From: Planctomycetaceae bacterium
Lineage (GTDB): Bacteria > Planctomycetota > Phycisphaerae > Tepidisphaerales > Tepidisphaeraceae
Assembly (NCBI GenBank): GCA_027487775.1
Contig: JAIYCY010000023.1
Location: forward strand, 1-64,000
Length of the DNA stretch: 64,000 bases
Reading direction: 5' to 3'
How positions within the stretch are numbered: position 1 is the first letter of the stretch; every line of letters starts with the position of its first letter. Below, in pieces: positions 39,445-47,685 of this stretch. The position numbers and the translations under genes are program-made. Under the pieces are notes generated by a model. The model saw only the letters and a program-made list of their open reading frames with translations. It was not told where the DNA came from and made no database searches.

Positions 39445-40182
39445 TCACTCTTGGATCAGCCGTCCGTCGCGGAGGACGAGGACACGGTCGGCTTCTTTGG
39501 CGAGTGCTCGGTCGTGTGTGACCATGACGACGGTGAGCGATTCGCGTCGATGCAGGTCTTCGATGACGTCCATGATCTGGCGTCCGGTTTGGGAATCGAG
39601 ATTGCCGGTCGGTTCGTCGGCAAGCAGGAGTCGCGGGCGGTTCATGAGAGCTCGCGCGATGGCGACGCGTTGGCGTTCGCCGCCGGAGAGTTCGGCGGGC
39701 CGATGTCGGATTCGATCGCGGAGGCCGACCTTTTCGAGAAGTTCTTCAGCGCGTGATCGGGTTTGGGTTCGACGTTTGAGGTGTCCTGCGAGCCAACCGT
39801 CGACGTGTGTGCTGAGGGTGGTGTTTTCGAGGACGTTCAGTTCGGGCAGCAGGTGATAGAACTGGAAGACGAATCCGATTTCGCGATTGCGAATGCGTCC
39901 GCGGACGCGGTGTCCGACGCGACCGATGTCGCGACCATCAAAGACGAGCGAGCCGGAGTCTGGCGTATCGAGTCCTCCCATGAGGTGGAGGAGTGTGCTC
40001 TTTCCCGACCCGCTGCGCCCTTCGATGGCGAGAAATTCGCCGGCGTTGACTGAAAGATTCACGCCTCGCAGCACCGGGAGTTCGACGCGTCCCATGCGAT
40101 ATCGTTTGGAAAGATTGACGACGTCATAGAGCGGCGAGTCTGTCGATGCTCGGGAGGGCAGGGGTGAGTCTTTTACAGTCAT
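39445..40182 (-). CDS. ABC transporter ATPase, LolD/MacB type
   Basis: A 245-residue ATPase subunit. It has VVNLSKRYRMGRVELPVLRGVNLSVNAGEFLAIEGRSGSGKSTLLHLMGGLD (Walker A), FQFYHLLPELNVLEN (Q-loop), LSGGERQRVAIARAL signature, LLLADEPTGNLDS (Walker B) and MVTHD. These features are typical of the LolD/FtsE/MacB group acting on lipoproteins, macrolides or cell-division substrates. The likely partner permease lies 6 kb away at 46159-47685 on the same strand, separated by the plus-strand phosphatase cluster. ATG 40182 is selected; the preceding TTG is in frame. Confidence 0.87.
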   Translation of the reverse strand: MTVKDSPLPSRASTDSPLYDVVNLSKRYRMGRVELPVLRGVNLSVNAGEFLAIEGRSGSGKSTLLHLMGGLDTPDSGSLVFDGRDIGRVGHRVRGRIRNREIGFVFQFYHLLPELNVLENTTLSTHVDGWLAGHLKRRTQTRSRAEELLEKVGLRDRIRHRPAELSGGERQRVAIARALMNRPRLLLADEPTGNLDSQTGRQIMDVIEDLHRRESLTVVMVTHDRALAKEADRVLVLRDGRLIQE

Positions 40183-40317
40183 CAACGACCGGTTCTCGCA
40201 AAAATGCTGATGCGTGCCAAGCCGCGTGACAGAAATTCCAGATCAGCGACTCAGGCAGTCCGAAAGCTCAAGTGATGTCGATGCGTGAATTAGTCCCGCT
40301 CTCACCGTTCAGCTTCG

Positions 40318-40340
40318 CGCAATGTTCACTCAACATTGCG
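40318..40340. promoter_or_regulatory. Perfect inverted repeat upstream of the phosphatase cluster
   Basis: CGCAATGTT (40318-40326) and AACATTGCG (40332-40340) form a perfect 9-5-9 inverted repeat, located 118 bases before the first phosphatase start and 136 bases before the divergent LolD-type start. It looks like a dimeric repressor/activator site. It does not resemble the enteric Pho box. Confidence 0.55.
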
Positions 40341-40457
40341 TGAACCTGAACCCGAAGATTGCACGACCTTGACAAGCTGAGATGACTCTCCCGGCGGATC
40401 GGCGCATGCCGATTTTGTGTTTCGCACCCACAGTCACCCTTCAATTCAGGGAGAGAA

Positions 40458-42386
40458 ATGTACAAGAAGTCGTCCGCATTGTTGTCAACAGCGTTGATCG
40501 CTCTATCCGCGTCCGCTGTGACAGCTCAGTTCCGCATCAATCCATACCTGCAGCAGCCGTCGACAGACGGGATGCTGATCAACTGGTTCACGACGAGCAA
40601 CACCCCCGGCGCGATCGAAATCACGGGTCCGGGTTTGTCTTCGCCTCTCTCGTTTAGCACGACTCCGTCGCGAGAGATCGCGTTGGATTACACGTCGGGT
40701 GAAGATGTGCAGACGATAGGCGGACTCTCGCAGGGTTCATGGTTGGTGGGCGGTTCGGGCGCGCGTGGCAACAATTACAAGCATTCGGTTGACGTTCGTT
40801 CGCTTCAGCCTGGACAGACCTACACGTACACGGTCACGCAGGGCACGGAGACATTTTCGCGTCAATTCCGCACTGCGCCGAGCAAGACCAACTGGCAATC
40901 CGTGCGGTTTGTCGCGATGAGCGACAGCGAAATCGAGCCGCTCGCACGCGTGCAGCGGACCCAGTGGGCCCCCGGTGCTGGCGCTGCCAGTCGACCTGCT
41001 GTAGGCAGCGCCTTTGCGAACAAGTTCGGGACCACAACGCTGAACGGCGCGACCGTGCTGCGTTACCCCCTGACCGAGAGCGAAGGCTTTCGACGGAACC
41101 TTCAGACGGTCGATTCGCGAAACCCGGACTTTGTGGTCATGCCCGGCGACATCGTTCAGGGCGGCGGATATCAGCCGGGCTGGGACGAGTTCTTCCGGCA
41201 TCAGGCAGGTGAGTTCGGAGACAACCTCACCAAGCGTCCGCTGATCGCTGCGATGGGCAACTGGGAGGTCTTCGCCACCGGCGTCAACGGCGGGTACAGC
41301 ACCAACACCGAGGCCAACCCACTCAACAACGGCCCGCGTTTTGGTCGTGCCAAGTACAAGAGCTACATCGATGCGCCATCCAATGGCTCGGTCAACGCGC
41401 AGGACAATTACCACCGAGTGGATTACGGTCCGGTCACGATCATCACGCTCGATTCCACCAACGGCGGCCAGCCTGGTGGATTGAACGAAGATCGCCGCGC
41501 CAACTACCCCGCCGGCACGAGACTGACTGGACGGCAATACACCGGCCCCGGGACCGACACGCAGGAGAATTTCTCCGTCGACGATTACAACGCAACCCGC
41601 GTCGATGCCGGTTACGAGCGATACGACTTCGATGATCTGAGCGACTTCAATCCCGGCAGCACGCAGTGGAACTGGGCCCGGCAGCAACTTGCCGATGCGC
41701 GAGCCAACGGGCAGATCGTCTTCGTGCAGTTCCATCACGCGCCCTTTTCGGATGGTGAGCACGGCCTGCCCATGAACCATGTCGCAAGCAGCGGTCAGGG
41801 CGGAACGCCGATGCGGCAGTATCACAGCATGTTCGAAGAGTTCGGCGTGGCAGCTGTGCTGAGTGGGCACAGCGAGATGTTCGAGCGGAGCTTTGTGGAT
41901 GAGAACCGAGACGGCCTGGGCGTGCACTATTACGACGTCGGCGTGAGCGCAGACGGGCTGCGTGGCGAGCGTCGTCTCAACGAAGCGCCCGGTGCGGACT
42001 TCTACAACCGTGAGTTGCTGAACTACAACCCATTCAGCAAGTGGTCCGCCGATCAAAGTGAAGCCGAACAGTGGCAGATGGTGGACGGCGTTCTGCAACT
42101 CGTGGACGGCGGAAAGCATTACGGTCATCTCGAAGTCAACGTCGAGAAGCTTTCGTCGGTGCTGACCGAAGGCACGCCCGCCGAGGCGGTAGCCAGGATC
42201 ACGCTCACGCCGGTTTACGTCTTCCCGCTCTTGGATGCCAATTACGATCTGATCGGCACAGAGCGTCGCGAGTACGGCGATGAAGTGACGTTGTTTCTCA
42301 ACGCTGCCGGTCAGGTGATCCCCGAGCCGGGCACGCTTGGCCTGCTCGCGAGTGCGTCGCTGATCGCACTTCGTCGTCGCAAGTGA
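40458..42386 (+). CDS. Purple-acid-phosphatase-like metallophosphoesterase with PEP-CTERM tag
   Basis: A 642-residue secreted protein. A signal peptide (1-23, ending VTAQ) precedes a fibronectin-like N-terminal domain typical of purple acid phosphatases (INPYLQQPSTDGMLINWFTTSN, LQPGQTYTYTVTQG). The calcineurin-like domain has VAMSDSE, VVMPGDIVQGG, AMGNWEV, VQFHHAPF and VLSGHSEMFER, giving metal and phosphate ligands. The C-terminal IPEPGTLGLLASASLIAL then RRRK is PEP-CTERM. It should release phosphate from organic esters outside the cytoplasm. GGGAGAG precedes the ATG. It is the first of three phosphatase genes on this strand. Confidence 0.87.
   Translation: MYKKSSALLSTALIALSASAVTAQFRINPYLQQPSTDGMLINWFTTSNTPGAIEITGPGLSSPLSFSTTPSREIALDYTSGEDVQTIGGLSQGSWLVGGSGARGNNYKHSVDVRSLQPGQTYTYTVTQGTETFSRQFRTAPSKTNWQSVRFVAMSDSEIEPLARVQRTQWAPGAGAASRPAVGSAFANKFGTTTLNGATVLRYPLTESEGFRRNLQTVDSRNPDFVVMPGDIVQGGGYQPGWDEFFRHQAGEFGDNLTKRPLIAAMGNWEVFATGVNGGYSTNTEANPLNNGPRFGRAKYKSYIDAPSNGSVNAQDNYHRVDYGPVTIITLDSTNGGQPGGLNEDRRANYPAGTRLTGRQYTGPGTDTQENFSVDDYNATRVDAGYERYDFDDLSDFNPGSTQWNWARQQLADARANGQIVFVQFHHAPFSDGEHGLPMNHVASSGQGGTPMRQYHSMFEEFGVAAVLSGHSEMFERSFVDENRDGLGVHYYDVGVSADGLRGERRLNEAPGADFYNRELLNYNPFSKWSADQSEAEQWQMVDGVLQLVDGGKHYGHLEVNVEKLSSVLTEGTPAEAVARITLTPVYVFPLLDANYDLIGTERREYGDEVTLFLNAAGQVIPEPGTLGLLASASLIALRRRK
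42333..42386 (+). repeat. 54-bp exact repeat, copy 1 (sorting-tag DNA)
   Basis: The last 54 bases of the purple-acid-type phosphatase gene, through the stop codon, are identical to 44235-44288 at the end of the phoD-type gene, including synonymous positions, although the rest of the two genes is unrelated. Confidence 0.95.
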
Positions 42387-42500
42387 ATGCGTTCATGGAC
42401 TGAACTTCGGGTCGGTGCTTCCGAGAAGGAAGCATCGACTCTTCGATCGGCTTATCAGGCCCGTCGCGTCCGCCTCTCAAACTCGAAAGGGAGAATCTTC

Positions 42501-44288
42501 ATGCGTTCGAACGCCCGCTCACTGCTGCTGCTGACTGCCGTCATCGCGGCTCTACCCGTGGTCGCACACGCCAACGAACTCGTCGTCGGCTCGGGTGATC
42601 TGACCAACAACTCGGTCGTGCTTTTCGCGCGAACCGACACGCCCGGCAACGTCAGCTTCGAGTACTCAGCCACGCCCGACTTCTCGTCGATCCTCGGCGG
42701 CGGCGCGGTGACGGTCGGCACCGACCTCGTGCCCGCCAAGCTCGACGTCACCGGGCTCGCGCCGAATCAGCAGTATTACTTTCGCGCGACCGACGCCGGC
42801 GCGCTGACCCGCGTGGGCGCTTTCAGCACACCGGCCCCCACGAGCGTGAAGCAGCCCGTCCGCATTGCCACCACCACCGACTGGCAGCAGTCTGCCCCGT
42901 TCCCCACCGTGCGCAATCTGCCCGGCCGCAACCCCGACGTCATCCTCAAGCTCGGCGACACCATCTACGCCGACACCGAAACCCGCGCCCTGCCTGGCGT
43001 CGTGCAGGCCCGCACACTTGATCAGTTCCGCACCAAGCACCGCGAGATCATCAGCCAGTCGGCCGTCAGCGCCACGCCCAACAACTTCATGGGCCAGGTC
43101 TACGCGTCGGCCCCGATCTTCAACACGATCGACGACCACGAAATCGTCGACAACTTCGCGGGCGGCGCAGCGCCAGGCGTGTCGCCCGATGCGCCCCTCG
43201 TCAACCCCGGCGAGGCCCCGCTCTTCACCGACGCAGTTCCGTTCGTGAACCAAACCCGGGCCTACCGCGATGCGATGCGGGCCTACAGCGAGTATCACCC
43301 CACGCGATCGCAGGTCTGGTCGGGCACAGGCGACGCCCGCGTCGACGGCGTGACCAAGCTCTATCGCCACCAGGATCTCGGCGGCAGCGCGAGCGTGACG
43401 ATGCTCGACAGCCGCAGCTTCCGCGATGTGCAGCTCCCGCCGGTGAGCAACCCCACCGATCCGATCGCGGTTGGCGGTTTCCTCGCCAGCACCTTCACGC
43501 CCGGCCGCACGCTGCTCGGTCGTCCGCAGCTTGATGCCGTCAAGGCCGACCTGCTCGCCGACCAGGCTTCGGGCGTGACGTGGAAGATCGTCGTCATCCC
43601 TGAGCCGATCCAGAACTTCGGCGTGGTCAATGCCGAAGACCGCTTCGAAGGCTACGCCACCGAGCGCACCGAGCTTTTGAAGTTCATCGATGACAACGGA
43701 ATCGACAACGTCGTCTTCGTAGCCGGCGACTTCCACGGCACCATCGTCAACAACCTCAGCTACCAGGTCCCCACCGCACAGGGCTTGCAGAGCATCCCGA
43801 CCAACGCGTTCGAGATCGTGACCGGCCCGGTCGGCTTCTTCAACGGACGCTTCGGCCCCGCGGTCGCGAACATCGCAGCGGCCGCAAATCTGATCACGCC
43901 TGAGCAGCTCGCCTTCTACAACTCTCTGCCCGAGGCGGGCAAGGACGCGTTCGTGCGAAACCTCGTCGACGCGCAGGTCACCCCGCTGGGCTACTCCCCC
44001 GTTGGTCTGGAAGACTCGGGCCTGAACGCCACGCTCCTGCAGGGCAGCTACTTCGCCGCCCACGGCTTTAGTTGGACCGAGTTCGACATCGACGAGCTCG
44101 AGAACCTGACGGTCACCACATGGAGCATTGACGCGTTCGACGACGCCTTCGCACTGGCCAACCCCGAAGCCGTGCTCGCGCTCGAGCCGCGCATCGTGAG
44201 CCAGTTCGTCGTCGCGCCGATTCCGGAGCCCGCAACGCTTGGCCTGCTCGCGAGTGCGTCGCTGATCGCACTTCGTCGTCGCAAGTGA
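42501..44288 (+). CDS. phoD: PhoD-family alkaline phosphatase with PEP-CTERM tag
   Basis: A 595-residue secreted phosphodiesterase/phosphomonoesterase. The signal peptide (1-24) is followed by a beta N-domain (ELVVGSGDLTNNSVVLFARTD) and the PhoD catalytic domain: IATTTDWQQS, VILKLGDTIYAD, TIDDHEIVDNF (DDHE motif), SVTMLDSRSFRD and VFVAGDFHG. PhoD enzymes are Ca/Fe-dependent and cleave phosphodiesters and monoesters. Many PhoD enzymes use Tat export; here the N-terminus MRSNARSLLLL lacks twin arginine. IPEPATLGLLASASLIAL then RRRK ends the protein. AAAGGGAGA sets the ATG at 42501, 114 bases after the preceding phosphatase. Confidence 0.9.
   Translation: MRSNARSLLLLTAVIAALPVVAHANELVVGSGDLTNNSVVLFARTDTPGNVSFEYSATPDFSSILGGGAVTVGTDLVPAKLDVTGLAPNQQYYFRATDAGALTRVGAFSTPAPTSVKQPVRIATTTDWQQSAPFPTVRNLPGRNPDVILKLGDTIYADTETRALPGVVQARTLDQFRTKHREIISQSAVSATPNNFMGQVYASAPIFNTIDDHEIVDNFAGGAAPGVSPDAPLVNPGEAPLFTDAVPFVNQTRAYRDAMRAYSEYHPTRSQVWSGTGDARVDGVTKLYRHQDLGGSASVTMLDSRSFRDVQLPPVSNPTDPIAVGGFLASTFTPGRTLLGRPQLDAVKADLLADQASGVTWKIVVIPEPIQNFGVVNAEDRFEGYATERTELLKFIDDNGIDNVVFVAGDFHGTIVNNLSYQVPTAQGLQSIPTNAFEIVTGPVGFFNGRFGPAVANIAAAANLITPEQLAFYNSLPEAGKDAFVRNLVDAQVTPLGYSPVGLEDSGLNATLLQGSYFAAHGFSWTEFDIDELENLTVTTWSIDAFDDAFALANPEAVLALEPRIVSQFVVAPIPEPATLGLLASASLIALRRRK
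44235..44288 (+). repeat. 54-bp exact repeat, copy 2 (sorting-tag DNA)
   Basis: Identical to 42333-42386, covering the second half of the PEP-CTERM tag and the stop codon. Confidence 0.95.
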
Positions 44289-44391
44289 GGTGTCGTTCGT
44301 CCCATCGCCGGCGGTCGATTTGATCGGTCGGTCGTCGGTTTGTCGTCACACAGTCTTCACATGGACGCAGGTTCTTTTTTAAGGAGAGAAG

Positions 44392-46050
44392 ATGTCTCGT
44401 AGCATTCGTTATGCCGCCTTTTCTGTTGCCGTTCTTGCAGGGACGACCAGTGCACTGGCCAATCCCAAAGCCAAGAACGTCATCCTCATGATCTCCGACG
44501 GCGCGGGCGACACGACATGGAAGGCTGCCAACCAGTGGCAGTTTGGGAACAACAGCACGCAACAGCCTTGGCAGTCGAACCCCGCGTACAAGAGCCATTG
44601 GATGAGCACCTTCCCGGGCGACACGCTTCCGCTTCCGCCGGGTCAGACCGATGTGCGTCTTGGGTTTCCCGCAGGGACCCTCCCACGTCGTCTTCCACAG
44701 TTGTGGAACGAGTTGCCCATCCCACAGAACGGCTCTTACGACATCTCTGCAGCCAATGATGACACGCCGGAAACCGTTCGTGTCTGGGCGAATGCCAACG
44801 GCTCACTTTTGGGTGATCGAGGTCCGCGGCAGGCGCTGACGCCCGTTGCCAGCAACCCGGCTGCGGTTCGACAGCTTGCGGGATTGCTCGCGGCTCAAGG
44901 ATCGGTGCGACCGCACTTCGATCAAGGCTTCGCCGCCTACGACTACCTGATCTGGAACAGCACCACGGACAGTGCCGCTGCGGGCACTGCGCTTGCTTCA
45001 GGACGTAAGACTTACAACAGCGCCATCAATTTCATCGATAATGGCACTTCGCTCGAAGCCGTGCCGTTCATCACCCAGCAGGTCAAGGCTCTGGGCAAGA
45101 AGGCGGGTGTCGTCACCACCAAACCCTTCACCGACGCCACGCCAGCGGCATTCGGCACACAGGACGACTTCCGTGACGATGAAGCCGCCATCAGCGATTC
45201 GATGATCCGCAACGGCAATCTCGATGTGATCATCACCCCGGGCCATCCGGAGTTTGGTGGAAGCTCACAAACGCTCAGCGCCGCGAACCTCGCCGCCCTG
45301 CGCGGTGGCCTCGACAACTGGACCTTTGTCGACAACAACGCAAATCTCCGAGCCATCGGGAACGGCTCGCAACCCGCCCCCGAGCGACTCTTCGGCATGG
45401 TCCCCGTTGGTGGATCGCTGAACAGCCGCAACACCACTGGTCGTAGGAATGCATACGACCCGCGATTCTACGATCCGGCCAACCCCAATGGCGCAGTGCC
45501 ATTCGTCAACCCCGACCTCGACGAGCTCTCGATGGCCGCCATCAACACGCTCAAGCAGGACCCCGAAGGCTTCTTCGTGATGATCGAAGGCGCTTCTGTG
45601 GACTCGGCTGCCCACGCCAACAACCTGCCGCAGCTCATTGAAGAGCAACTGCAATTCAATCGTGCCGTCGATCGGGTGATCAATTGGATCGAGACCGAGA
45701 GTTCATGGGACGACACACTCCTGATCGTGACCACCGATCACGCCAACGGGATGTTCCTCGGACCGGACTCTCGAACAGTCTATTTCCAAGACCCTGTCCC
45801 CGGCGGGGCGGGAGAGCTTCCTCAGGGCATCTTCTGGACCACCAACCACACCAATGAACTCGTGCCCCTCTGGTCTCGTGGTCCGGGCAGCGAACTCTTT
45901 TCGCAGCTGTTTGACGGCGTGGACCCGCGTCGTGGTCAATTCGTCGACAACACAGACGTCTATACCGTGATGAGCAGCGTCGTTCCCGAGCCGGCAACGA
46001 TGGGTCTGCTTGCGGGTGCGGCGGTCGTGGCGCTGCGTCGCCGCAAATGA
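44392..46050 (+). CDS. phoA: PhoA-type alkaline phosphatase with PEP-CTERM tag
   Basis: A 552-residue secreted enzyme of the alkaline phosphatase superfamily. After the signal peptide (1-24) come NVILMISDGAGD (metal-binding Asp), STTDSAAAGTALASGRKT with the phosphorylated Ser, VVTTKPFTDATPAAF, VMIEGASVDSAAHANN and IVTTDHANG, all active-site or zinc/magnesium ligands. It hydrolyses phosphomonoesters. A 45-residue insertion (about 55-100) is unusual. The tag VPEPATMGLLAGAAVVAL then RRRK shows independent synonymous codon choice from the other two tags. It follows phoD by 103 bases and closes the cluster before a terminator. Confidence 0.92.
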   Translation: MSRSIRYAAFSVAVLAGTTSALANPKAKNVILMISDGAGDTTWKAANQWQFGNNSTQQPWQSNPAYKSHWMSTFPGDTLPLPPGQTDVRLGFPAGTLPRRLPQLWNELPIPQNGSYDISAANDDTPETVRVWANANGSLLGDRGPRQALTPVASNPAAVRQLAGLLAAQGSVRPHFDQGFAAYDYLIWNSTTDSAAAGTALASGRKTYNSAINFIDNGTSLEAVPFITQQVKALGKKAGVVTTKPFTDATPAAFGTQDDFRDDEAAISDSMIRNGNLDVIITPGHPEFGGSSQTLSAANLAALRGGLDNWTFVDNNANLRAIGNGSQPAPERLFGMVPVGGSLNSRNTTGRRNAYDPRFYDPANPNGAVPFVNPDLDELSMAAINTLKQDPEGFFVMIEGASVDSAAHANNLPQLIEEQLQFNRAVDRVINWIETESSWDDTLLIVTTDHANGMFLGPDSRTVYFQDPVPGGAGELPQGIFWTTNHTNELVPLWSRGPGSELFSQLFDGVDPRRGQFVDNTDVYTVMSSVVPEPATMGLLAGAAVVALRRRK

Positions 46051-46071
46051 GTGAACAGGGTTCCCTTCGCG

Positions 46072-46106
46072 GGCGGTCGACTTGATCGGTCGACCGTCGG
46101 CTTTTT
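46072..46106 (+). terminator. Terminator at the end of the phosphatase cluster
   Basis: CGGTCGAC (46074-46081) pairs with GTCGACCG (46089-46096), extended by a G-T and a G-C pair, with a seven-base loop; TCGGC then TTTTT follows. The sequence closely resembles 44310-44343 downstream of phoD. Confidence 0.65.
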
Positions 46107-46158: not shown

Positions 46159-47685
46159 TTATTCAAAGCGTAGGGCGCGGACGGGGCGAAGCATGGCGGC
46201 GCGGAGTGCGGGGACGCCCGCGCCGACGACCGCGGCGGCGATGGCGACGGCGAAGATGATGCCCGCCGCCGAGACATCGACGCGATTGGGCACCTCGTCG
46301 AATGCGTAGACATCAGGGTTCCACGGGTCAAAACCGGTGTTGGCGGCCACCCATTTGTGGATCGGGTTGATGTAATGCGTGAAGGTCCAGCCGAGCGCGA
46401 TGCCGAGAAGTCCGCCGACACATCCGATGACCGCGCCGTAGCAGAGGAAGATGTAGGCGACGGTCCATGGCGATGCGCCGACGCTTTTGAGGATGCCGAT
46501 GTCGCGCGTCTTTTCGATGACGATCATGTAGAAGATGCAGAAGATCAGTGCGACGGCGACGAGGCTGATGAAGCTGAAGAGGAACATGACGAGCGAGATT
46601 TCGTTTTCGATCGCGCCGATCCAGAGGCGTTGCTGTTCCTGCCATGTTTGGACGCGAATGGCGCCGAAGCCGGCGTTGGGGATTTGTCCTGTGGTGTCAA
46701 AGACGACTTCTTCGATGCTGCTTTTGAGTGCGATGGGATCGATGCCAGACGAGACGCTGATGTGGATTTCGCTGGTGCGTGCGGGTTCGGTTTTGGATTC
46801 GCCGGTTTTGCGGTCTTTGTAGGTGTAGCTGTTCATCTGCAGGTCGCGCTGCAGGACGTCGAAGGGGACGTAGACGTTGTTGTCGTGGACTGGGAGTTGG
46901 GTGCGTGAGCCGTGGACGATCCAGTATTGGGTGAGTGCGGGGTTGAGGGTGGTGGCGCTGCTGAGATCGTCGGCGGCGGGCACGACGGTGAGGCGTGCGA
47001 AGCGGAGTTCGAGTTGTGGTGGCCAGTCGACTTGTCCGTCGCGTTTTTTGCGAGCGCCGACGACGAGTCCGCCGACGATCATGCCCGGTCGCTCGCGTAC
47101 GCGTGCGTCGTCTGGGAGGATGAATTCATAGGGTGCGTGAGGGTAGAGATCGAAGCTGAGGCGGTTGAGTTTCCATGGTTCTGGGTAATCGACTTCGGAG
47201 TTGTAGACGAGCGTGGGCCCGAACTGCCAGACGCGATCGATGTCGGCGATGGGGATGCCGAGGACCTGGACGTAGGATTCGATTTTGTTATCGATGTTGA
47301 TGAGTGCGGCGGTTCGGATGACGGGGACGGCGGCGTCGACGCCGGGCGTTTCGCGGAGGCGTTTGATGATCGCGTCATAGTTGCTGATACCACTTTGTCT
47401 TGGCGTGGAGATGATGAGGTCGCCTGAGAGGAGTTTGAAGCTGTTGCGATATTGCGCGAGCCATCCGCCCATGACGCTGAAGACGACGAGTACGAGCGCG
47501 ACGCAGAGCGCGACGGCGAGTAGGCTGACCCAGGCGAGTCGGAGCTTGAAGAGGTATTTGTGGACGAGCGTACGAATCGCGGGCGGGCCGATGAGGTAAT
47601 GGAGAATGGCCACCCCGACGCCCGCGAGGATGGCGAAGGCGAGGAGGGCGACGAGGCTGACGAGGATGACTTGAGTGGTGCTCAC
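46159..47685 (-). CDS. LolC/LolE-type ABC transporter permease (MacB/FtsX fold)
   Basis: A 508-residue membrane protein. Two N-terminal helices (VILVSLVALLAFAILAGVGVAILHYLIG; LAWVSLLAVALCVALVLVVFSVMGGWL) precede a large periplasmic MacB-like domain (about 85-370). The C-terminal three-helix FtsX core has ISLVAVALIFCIFYMIVIEKTRDIGILKSVGASPWTVAYIFL, a pattern shared with LolC/LolE. It may extract lipoproteins or other lipidated cargo with the LolD-type ATPase at 39445-40182. The start is GTG 47685, overlapping the antitoxin stop by GTGA, so it may be translationally coupled to the upstream gene. An extra N-terminal helix compared with standard LolC is noted. Confidence 0.82.
   Translation of the reverse strand: MSTTQVILVSLVALLAFAILAGVGVAILHYLIGPPAIRTLVHKYLFKLRLAWVSLLAVALCVALVLVVFSVMGGWLAQYRNSFKLLSGDLIISTPRQSGISNYDAIIKRLRETPGVDAAVPVIRTAALINIDNKIESYVQVLGIPIADIDRVWQFGPTLVYNSEVDYPEPWKLNRLSFDLYPHAPYEFILPDDARVRERPGMIVGGLVVGARKKRDGQVDWPPQLELRFARLTVVPAADDLSSATTLNPALTQYWIVHGSRTQLPVHDNNVYVPFDVLQRDLQMNSYTYKDRKTGESKTEPARTSEIHISVSSGIDPIALKSSIEEVVFDTTGQIPNAGFGAIRVQTWQEQQRLWIGAIENEISLVMFLFSFISLVAVALIFCIFYMIVIEKTRDIGILKSVGASPWTVAYIFLCYGAVIGCVGGLLGIALGWTFTHYINPIHKWVAANTGFDPWNPDVYAFDEVPNRVDVSAAGIIFAVAIAAAVVGAGVPALRAAMLRPVRALRFE

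Follow-up and report, generated by a model that had tools for sequence, protein, structure and literature searches.

The three phosphatase-family genes at positions 40458-46050 of the window (the whole stretch of DNA analysed, 64,000 nucleotides) are rather likely to form a lineage-specific tandem set of Sec-type secreted hydrolases, in which a 3′ cassette encoding the PEP-CTERM tag has been copied or converted between neighbouring genes. The cluster is a real, unusual yet lineage-specific grouping of known enzyme families, and the enzymes themselves are mostly ordinary. The copied tag cassette is more informative than the enzyme array, and it hints at how such tags spread. The features of the locus are the following:

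39445-40185, minus strand: LolD-like ABC ATPase, flanking gene (TIGR02211, 263 bits, under the cut-off of 307.75)
40307-40351, no strand given: 45-nt near-perfect palindrome between the lolD-like gene and the start of the PAP-like gene (20-nt arms, 90% complementary; z -5.8)
40458-42386, plus strand: PAP-like secreted metallophosphoesterase, 642 aa, PEP-CTERM tag (Pfam, AF2 with Foldseek, motifs)
42333-42386, plus strand: 54-nt 3′ end of the PAP-like gene (tag codons and stop), identical to PhoD 44235-44288
42409-42441, plus strand: strong intercistronic hairpin after the PAP-like gene, 14-pair stem, no T run (z -5.2)
42501-44288, plus strand: PhoD-type phosphatase/phosphodiesterase (Asp subfamily), 595 aa, PEP-CTERM tag (Pfam, PDB 2YEQ)
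44226-44341, plus strand: PhoD tag, stop and 3′ hairpin, homologous DNA to 45988-46103
44235-44288, plus strand: 54-nt 3′ end of the PhoD gene (tag codons and stop), identical to PAP-like 42333-42386
44307-44339, plus strand: hairpin after the PhoD gene, 14-pair stem partly G-U, weak T tail (z -1.6)
44392-46050, plus strand: PhoA-type alkaline phosphatase, 552 aa, PEP-CTERM tag (PF00245, PDB matches, conserved residues)
45988-46103, plus strand: PhoA tag, stop and terminator-like 3′ hairpin with T-rich tail (z -3.1), homologous to 44226-44341
46159-47685, minus strand: LolC/E-like permease, flanking gene (TIGR02212, 152 bits, under the cut-off of 362)

The tandem order given in the earlier note is confirmed: the PAP-like, PhoD and PhoA genes lie head to tail on the plus strand and are separated by short gaps. 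Its assignment of each product to a secreted phosphatase family with a signal peptide and a PEP-CTERM tag also holds, based on the Pfam domains and on the hydrophobic N-terminal signal peptide found, as judged by eye, in all three proteins. Concerning the PhoD gene, a mechanical ORF call places the start at 42387, which is unlikely; the start is probably the ATG at 42501, because it is preceded by the Shine–Dalgarno-like sequence AAAGGGAG and opens the signal peptide. LolD-like and LolC/E-like genes usually adjoin, and since both minus-strand flanks of the cluster are of these types, it is plausible that the cluster was inserted into a lolCE–lolD operon, which would now be split around it. The palindrome at 40307-40351 lies between divergent genes and is a candidate operator or leader hairpin, and none of the other loci fetched contains its core.

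The PAP-like and PhoD genes are identical over their final 54 nt, which include the stop codon, but have diverged over the 18 nt before these. These two tags are the most similar of the 1225 tag pairs in the genome, where the next longest shared run is 33 nt. The PhoD and PhoA genes share 74% identity over about 116 nt (E 1.2e-14), a region that spans the tag, the stop codon and the hairpin; the 42-nt block after the stop, which contains the hairpin, scores 54, a value that none of 5000 shuffles approaches (30 at most), and is second among the 1225 tag pairs. The 3′ UTR of the PAP-like gene does not contain the PhoD/PhoA hairpin sequence. A genome search with the PhoD tag and 3′ region returned only two strong matches, both within the cluster (the PAP-like tag, E 2e-22, and PhoA, 1.2e-14); the next match was found at 6.7e-5. 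The bodies of the three enzymes, stripped of their tags, gave no significant blastp match to one another. Across the genome, the tags of neighbouring genes are more alike than those of non-neighbours (10 vs 1215 pairs, p 3.6e-5), and neighbours also make up the three pairs with the highest tag similarity. Outside the cluster this likeness is partly due to paralogy, as the proteins of contig C33 (at least one of the top pairs) share their first ~100 aa. At 62620-65646 of that contig (G000:C33, L189) there are three PEP-CTERM genes in a row whose tags resemble one another; the 3′ regions of two of them, which include a hairpin, are nearly identical over a long stretch, and the N-terminal parts of these two are partly alike.

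The C-terminal tags are IPEPGTLGLLASASLIALRRRK in the PAP-like protein, IPEPATLGLLASASLIALRRRK in PhoD and VPEPATMGLLAGAAVVALRRRK in PhoA, and all three contain the PEP motif, the hydrophobic stretch and the basic residues of PEP-CTERM proteins. In a six-frame scan of the genome the tags score 23.8, 24.5 and 27.4 bits, respectively, against PF07589, all above the cut-off of 20.7; when whole proteins are scored (17.8, 18.5 and 23.1), only PhoA exceeds it. The genome (4.10 Mb, 34 contigs) contains about 50 PEP-CTERM tags (at least 50) and two EpsH-family exosortases (E 4e-46 and 1e-40), both over the TIGR02602 cut-off and assigned at the level of that family, with neither placed in a named subtype. 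A housekeeping exosortase, with its gene elsewhere in the genome, probably processes all three proteins. To read the shared tags as a shared export route, as was proposed before, is reasonable, but the close likeness of the three tags would stem from local copying of their DNA. The genome contains six further secreted proteins of phosphatase families, namely PhoD-like (C7, C32), PhoA-like (C29) and PAP- or metallophosphatase-like (C12, C34, C6), and all are untagged, so tagging is a property of the cluster and not of phosphatases generally (3/3 in the cluster vs 0/6 elsewhere; Fisher p about 0.012). Retention at the surface, which the earlier note took to follow from the tags, has yet to be established for PEP-CTERM systems that have been studied: the crtB study of cyanoexosortase B (PMC12188702), in which PEP-CTERM proteins were found in the culture medium, supports their export but left open whether they are released, anchored in the outer membrane or bound to polysaccharide.

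The same note described three unrelated folds, and this has to be corrected to two: the PAP-like and PhoD proteins are homologous (hhalign 97%, E 7.6e-11), and only PhoA, the profile of which matches neither of their families, is unrelated. The solved PhoD structure is most like purple acid phosphatases (PMC4223295).

The PAP-like protein contains a PAP N-terminal domain and a calcineurin-like metallophosphatase domain (Pfam: PF16656, 5.7e-7; PF00149, 3e-8). In Foldseek, the AF2 model (pTM 0.73) has PAPs as its top matches, among them kidney-bean PAP at E 3e-15; phmmer gave no match to the protein in the PDB. It resembles the plant purple acid phosphatases (kidney bean, 1KBP/4DHL) in fold, in the N-terminal PAP domain and in five of the seven metal ligands, assigned by motif on canonical positions which we take from general knowledge of PAPs; the motifs are DSE (motif I), GDIVQ, GNWE, QFHH and GHSE. 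In contrast to the plant enzymes, it has GDxxQ/E in place of the Tyr ligand and GHxE in place of GHxH. Both changes are shared by all relatives aligned: Gln or Glu stands where PAPs have the chromophoric Tyr that binds iron, and the final metal-binding His is lost. Of the label 'purple-acid-type', the fold stands, but the protein is probably not purple, because the Tyr ligand is replaced and GHxH is changed to GHxE. In view of its altered metal ligands, it is best described as a PAP-like protein and a candidate metalloenzyme.

The PhoD protein has the PhoD and PhoD_N domains (PF09423, 6.5e-41; PF16655, 3.7e-12) together with the Tyr and Asp ligands, and aligns with PDB 2YEQ (E 2.4e-15); against the NCBIfam equivalog AlkPhosPhoDBac it reaches 63 bits, far from the cut-off of 1000. 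Like the PhoD of Bacillus subtilis (2YEQ; PMC4223295), it has both domains and the LGDxIY, DDHE and GDxH motifs. It differs in having Asp for Cys180, Asp at N271 and a PEP-CTERM tag, and no twin-arginine signal was seen in it. The Asp at Cys180 is a known variant, since PMC4223295, which lists the PhoD ligands, also describes an Asp subfamily. Concerning PhoA, the Pfam match is PF00245 (2.7e-38) and PDB matches reach 4e-22. The DSA nucleophile with the catalytic Ser and the metal ligands are conserved, as in other PhoA-type alkaline phosphatases (D36, S194, D248/T250, R261, E399, D404, H408, D449, H450 and H486 are kept, by motif), but a large insert before the nucleophile sets the protein apart from other PhoA relatives. 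The AF2 model has a pTM of 0.68 and a mean pLDDT of 59.6, and the score against the NCBIfam equivalog PRK10518 (E. coli PhoA) is 108 bits, below the cut-off of 540.

Of the 298 class genomes compared, a number that counts the query genome, 38, 19 and 8 contain homologues (E 1e-30) of PhoA, PhoD and the PAP-like protein, respectively. Their C-termini vary and can be PEP-CTERM, dockerin-like, other hydrophobic-basic ends, or none. Among the PhoD homologues of the class (L053-L069), PEP-CTERM, dockerin-like repeats or other hydrophobic-basic tails are found on the same enzyme. The nearest relatives of PhoA are in three Burkholderiales MAGs (L071-L073; 65-66% identity, nearly full length, tag included) and, at about 62%, in a single genome from the same family. 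The tree groups the query with Burkholderiales (98/94), inside a clade with the same-family member, and for this reason suggests that PhoA was transferred between phyla, in either direction. The tag of the cluster PhoA resembles those of the neighbouring genes and not the Burkholderiales tag. At the loci of these four relatives, no PAP-like or PhoD relative was found. In L073, the gene upstream of the Burkholderiales PhoA also ends in a PEP-CTERM-like tag.

The most likely function would be the hydrolysis of organic mono- and diesters, by which phosphate would be released outside the inner membrane. The earlier note went further and proposed a dedicated phosphate-scavenging array; such a phosphate-regulated surface array, kept as a functional unit with a broad mono- and diesterase range, is possible, gained no independent support in this analysis and seems unlikely to us. 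In its favour are the tandem order of the three phosphatase families on a single strand, the short gaps between the genes, the largely intact catalytic sites of PhoA and PhoD, and the fact that these three are the only tagged phosphatase-family genes of the genome. The tandem of tagged phosphatases stands, but conservation, linkage and regulation as an array are not supported: neither the cluster nor any adjacent pair of its genes is conserved outside the query among the 298 class genomes, where the note had proposed a search for the same triple; the pst and pho genes that it suggested might lie nearby are on another contig (pstSCA-like at C10:2781-7312, phoU at C10:45775); and upstream of the cluster no Pho-box-like repeat exceeds background, with a consensus that comes from other phyla. 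By this consensus the cluster shows neither the Pho box nor, by gene position, the pst/pho linkage of a Pho regulon cluster, and a sigma-70 promoter scan gave nothing above chance. Simple co-transcription of the three genes is also uncertain, because both gaps hold hairpins.

The enzymes might instead serve in the turnover of matrix or biofilm (extracellular DNA, phospholipid, phosphorylated polysaccharide), with PEP-CTERM routing them into exopolysaccharide and phosphate starvation playing no part. Exopolysaccharide is tied to PEP-CTERM systems (PMC1569441, PMC12188702), and PhoD enzymes attack diesters (PMC4223295), but the genes directly next to the cluster included none identified as serving polysaccharide assembly, and we regard this role as doubtful. 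It is highly improbable that the identity of the tags reflects convergence, driven by the codon usage of the region and by selection for one and the same peptide, and not copying: the constraint on PEP-CTERM peptides and the limited range of codons in them speak for convergence, as does the 75-80% identity reached by several tag pairs of the genome, but identical codon choice over 54 nt has a P of about 3e-9 given the same peptide and the local codon usage, an excess of identity which contradicts convergence, and the PhoD/PhoA likeness extends past the stop into non-coding DNA.

Local copying followed by conversion, in either direction and by a mechanism that we infer, would be the simplest account of the tag DNA. 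A 3′ cassette, consisting of the PEP-CTERM codons and the stop and, for PhoD and PhoA, also the hairpin beyond, would have been copied between adjacent genes; later, a recent conversion would have removed all differences between the PAP-like and PhoD tags over 54 nt, with a tract that ends at the stop codon. The sharing of tag and 3′ hairpin by PhoD and PhoA would be older than the PAP-like/PhoD conversion. The moderate DNA similarity of PhoD and PhoA (74%) counts against the copying account and would fit copying at various ages and in either direction.

The locus bears on the question of how a single genome comes to have one sorting tag on dozens of unrelated proteins, because it shows recent tag conversion, at the DNA level, between adjacent enzymes with dissimilar bodies. 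None of the papers searched contains both 'PEP-CTERM' and 'gene conversion'. Tentatively, and as a possibility that we rank below an even chance, PEP-CTERM tags may spread within genomes as a 3′ cassette of tag codons, stop and transcription terminator that is copied between neighbours. If this is true, an enzyme arriving beside a tagged gene would gain the local tag or swap to it, and the cargo set of an exosortase would grow via neighbour-to-neighbour tag capture and conversion. Since the locus combines conversion with older sharing of a hairpin, such a spread is testable by comparing tag and body DNA across exosortase genomes.

The known system closest to the cluster is PEP-CTERM/exosortase sorting (Haft 2006, PMC1569441; TIGR02595/PF07589), with which it has in common the signal peptide, the PEP motif, the hydrophobic stretch, the basic end and the exosortases. 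PEP-CTERM was described there as an appended module with lineage-specific expansion, and the cluster agrees with this in that the module is appended to enzymes with tagless homologues and has expanded in one lineage. Haft 2006 (PMC1569441) infers the expansion from protein similarity, whereas the cluster shows the sharing of tags in the DNA itself: neighbours with dissimilar bodies share a converted 54-nt tract, and one pair also shares the 3′ hairpin.
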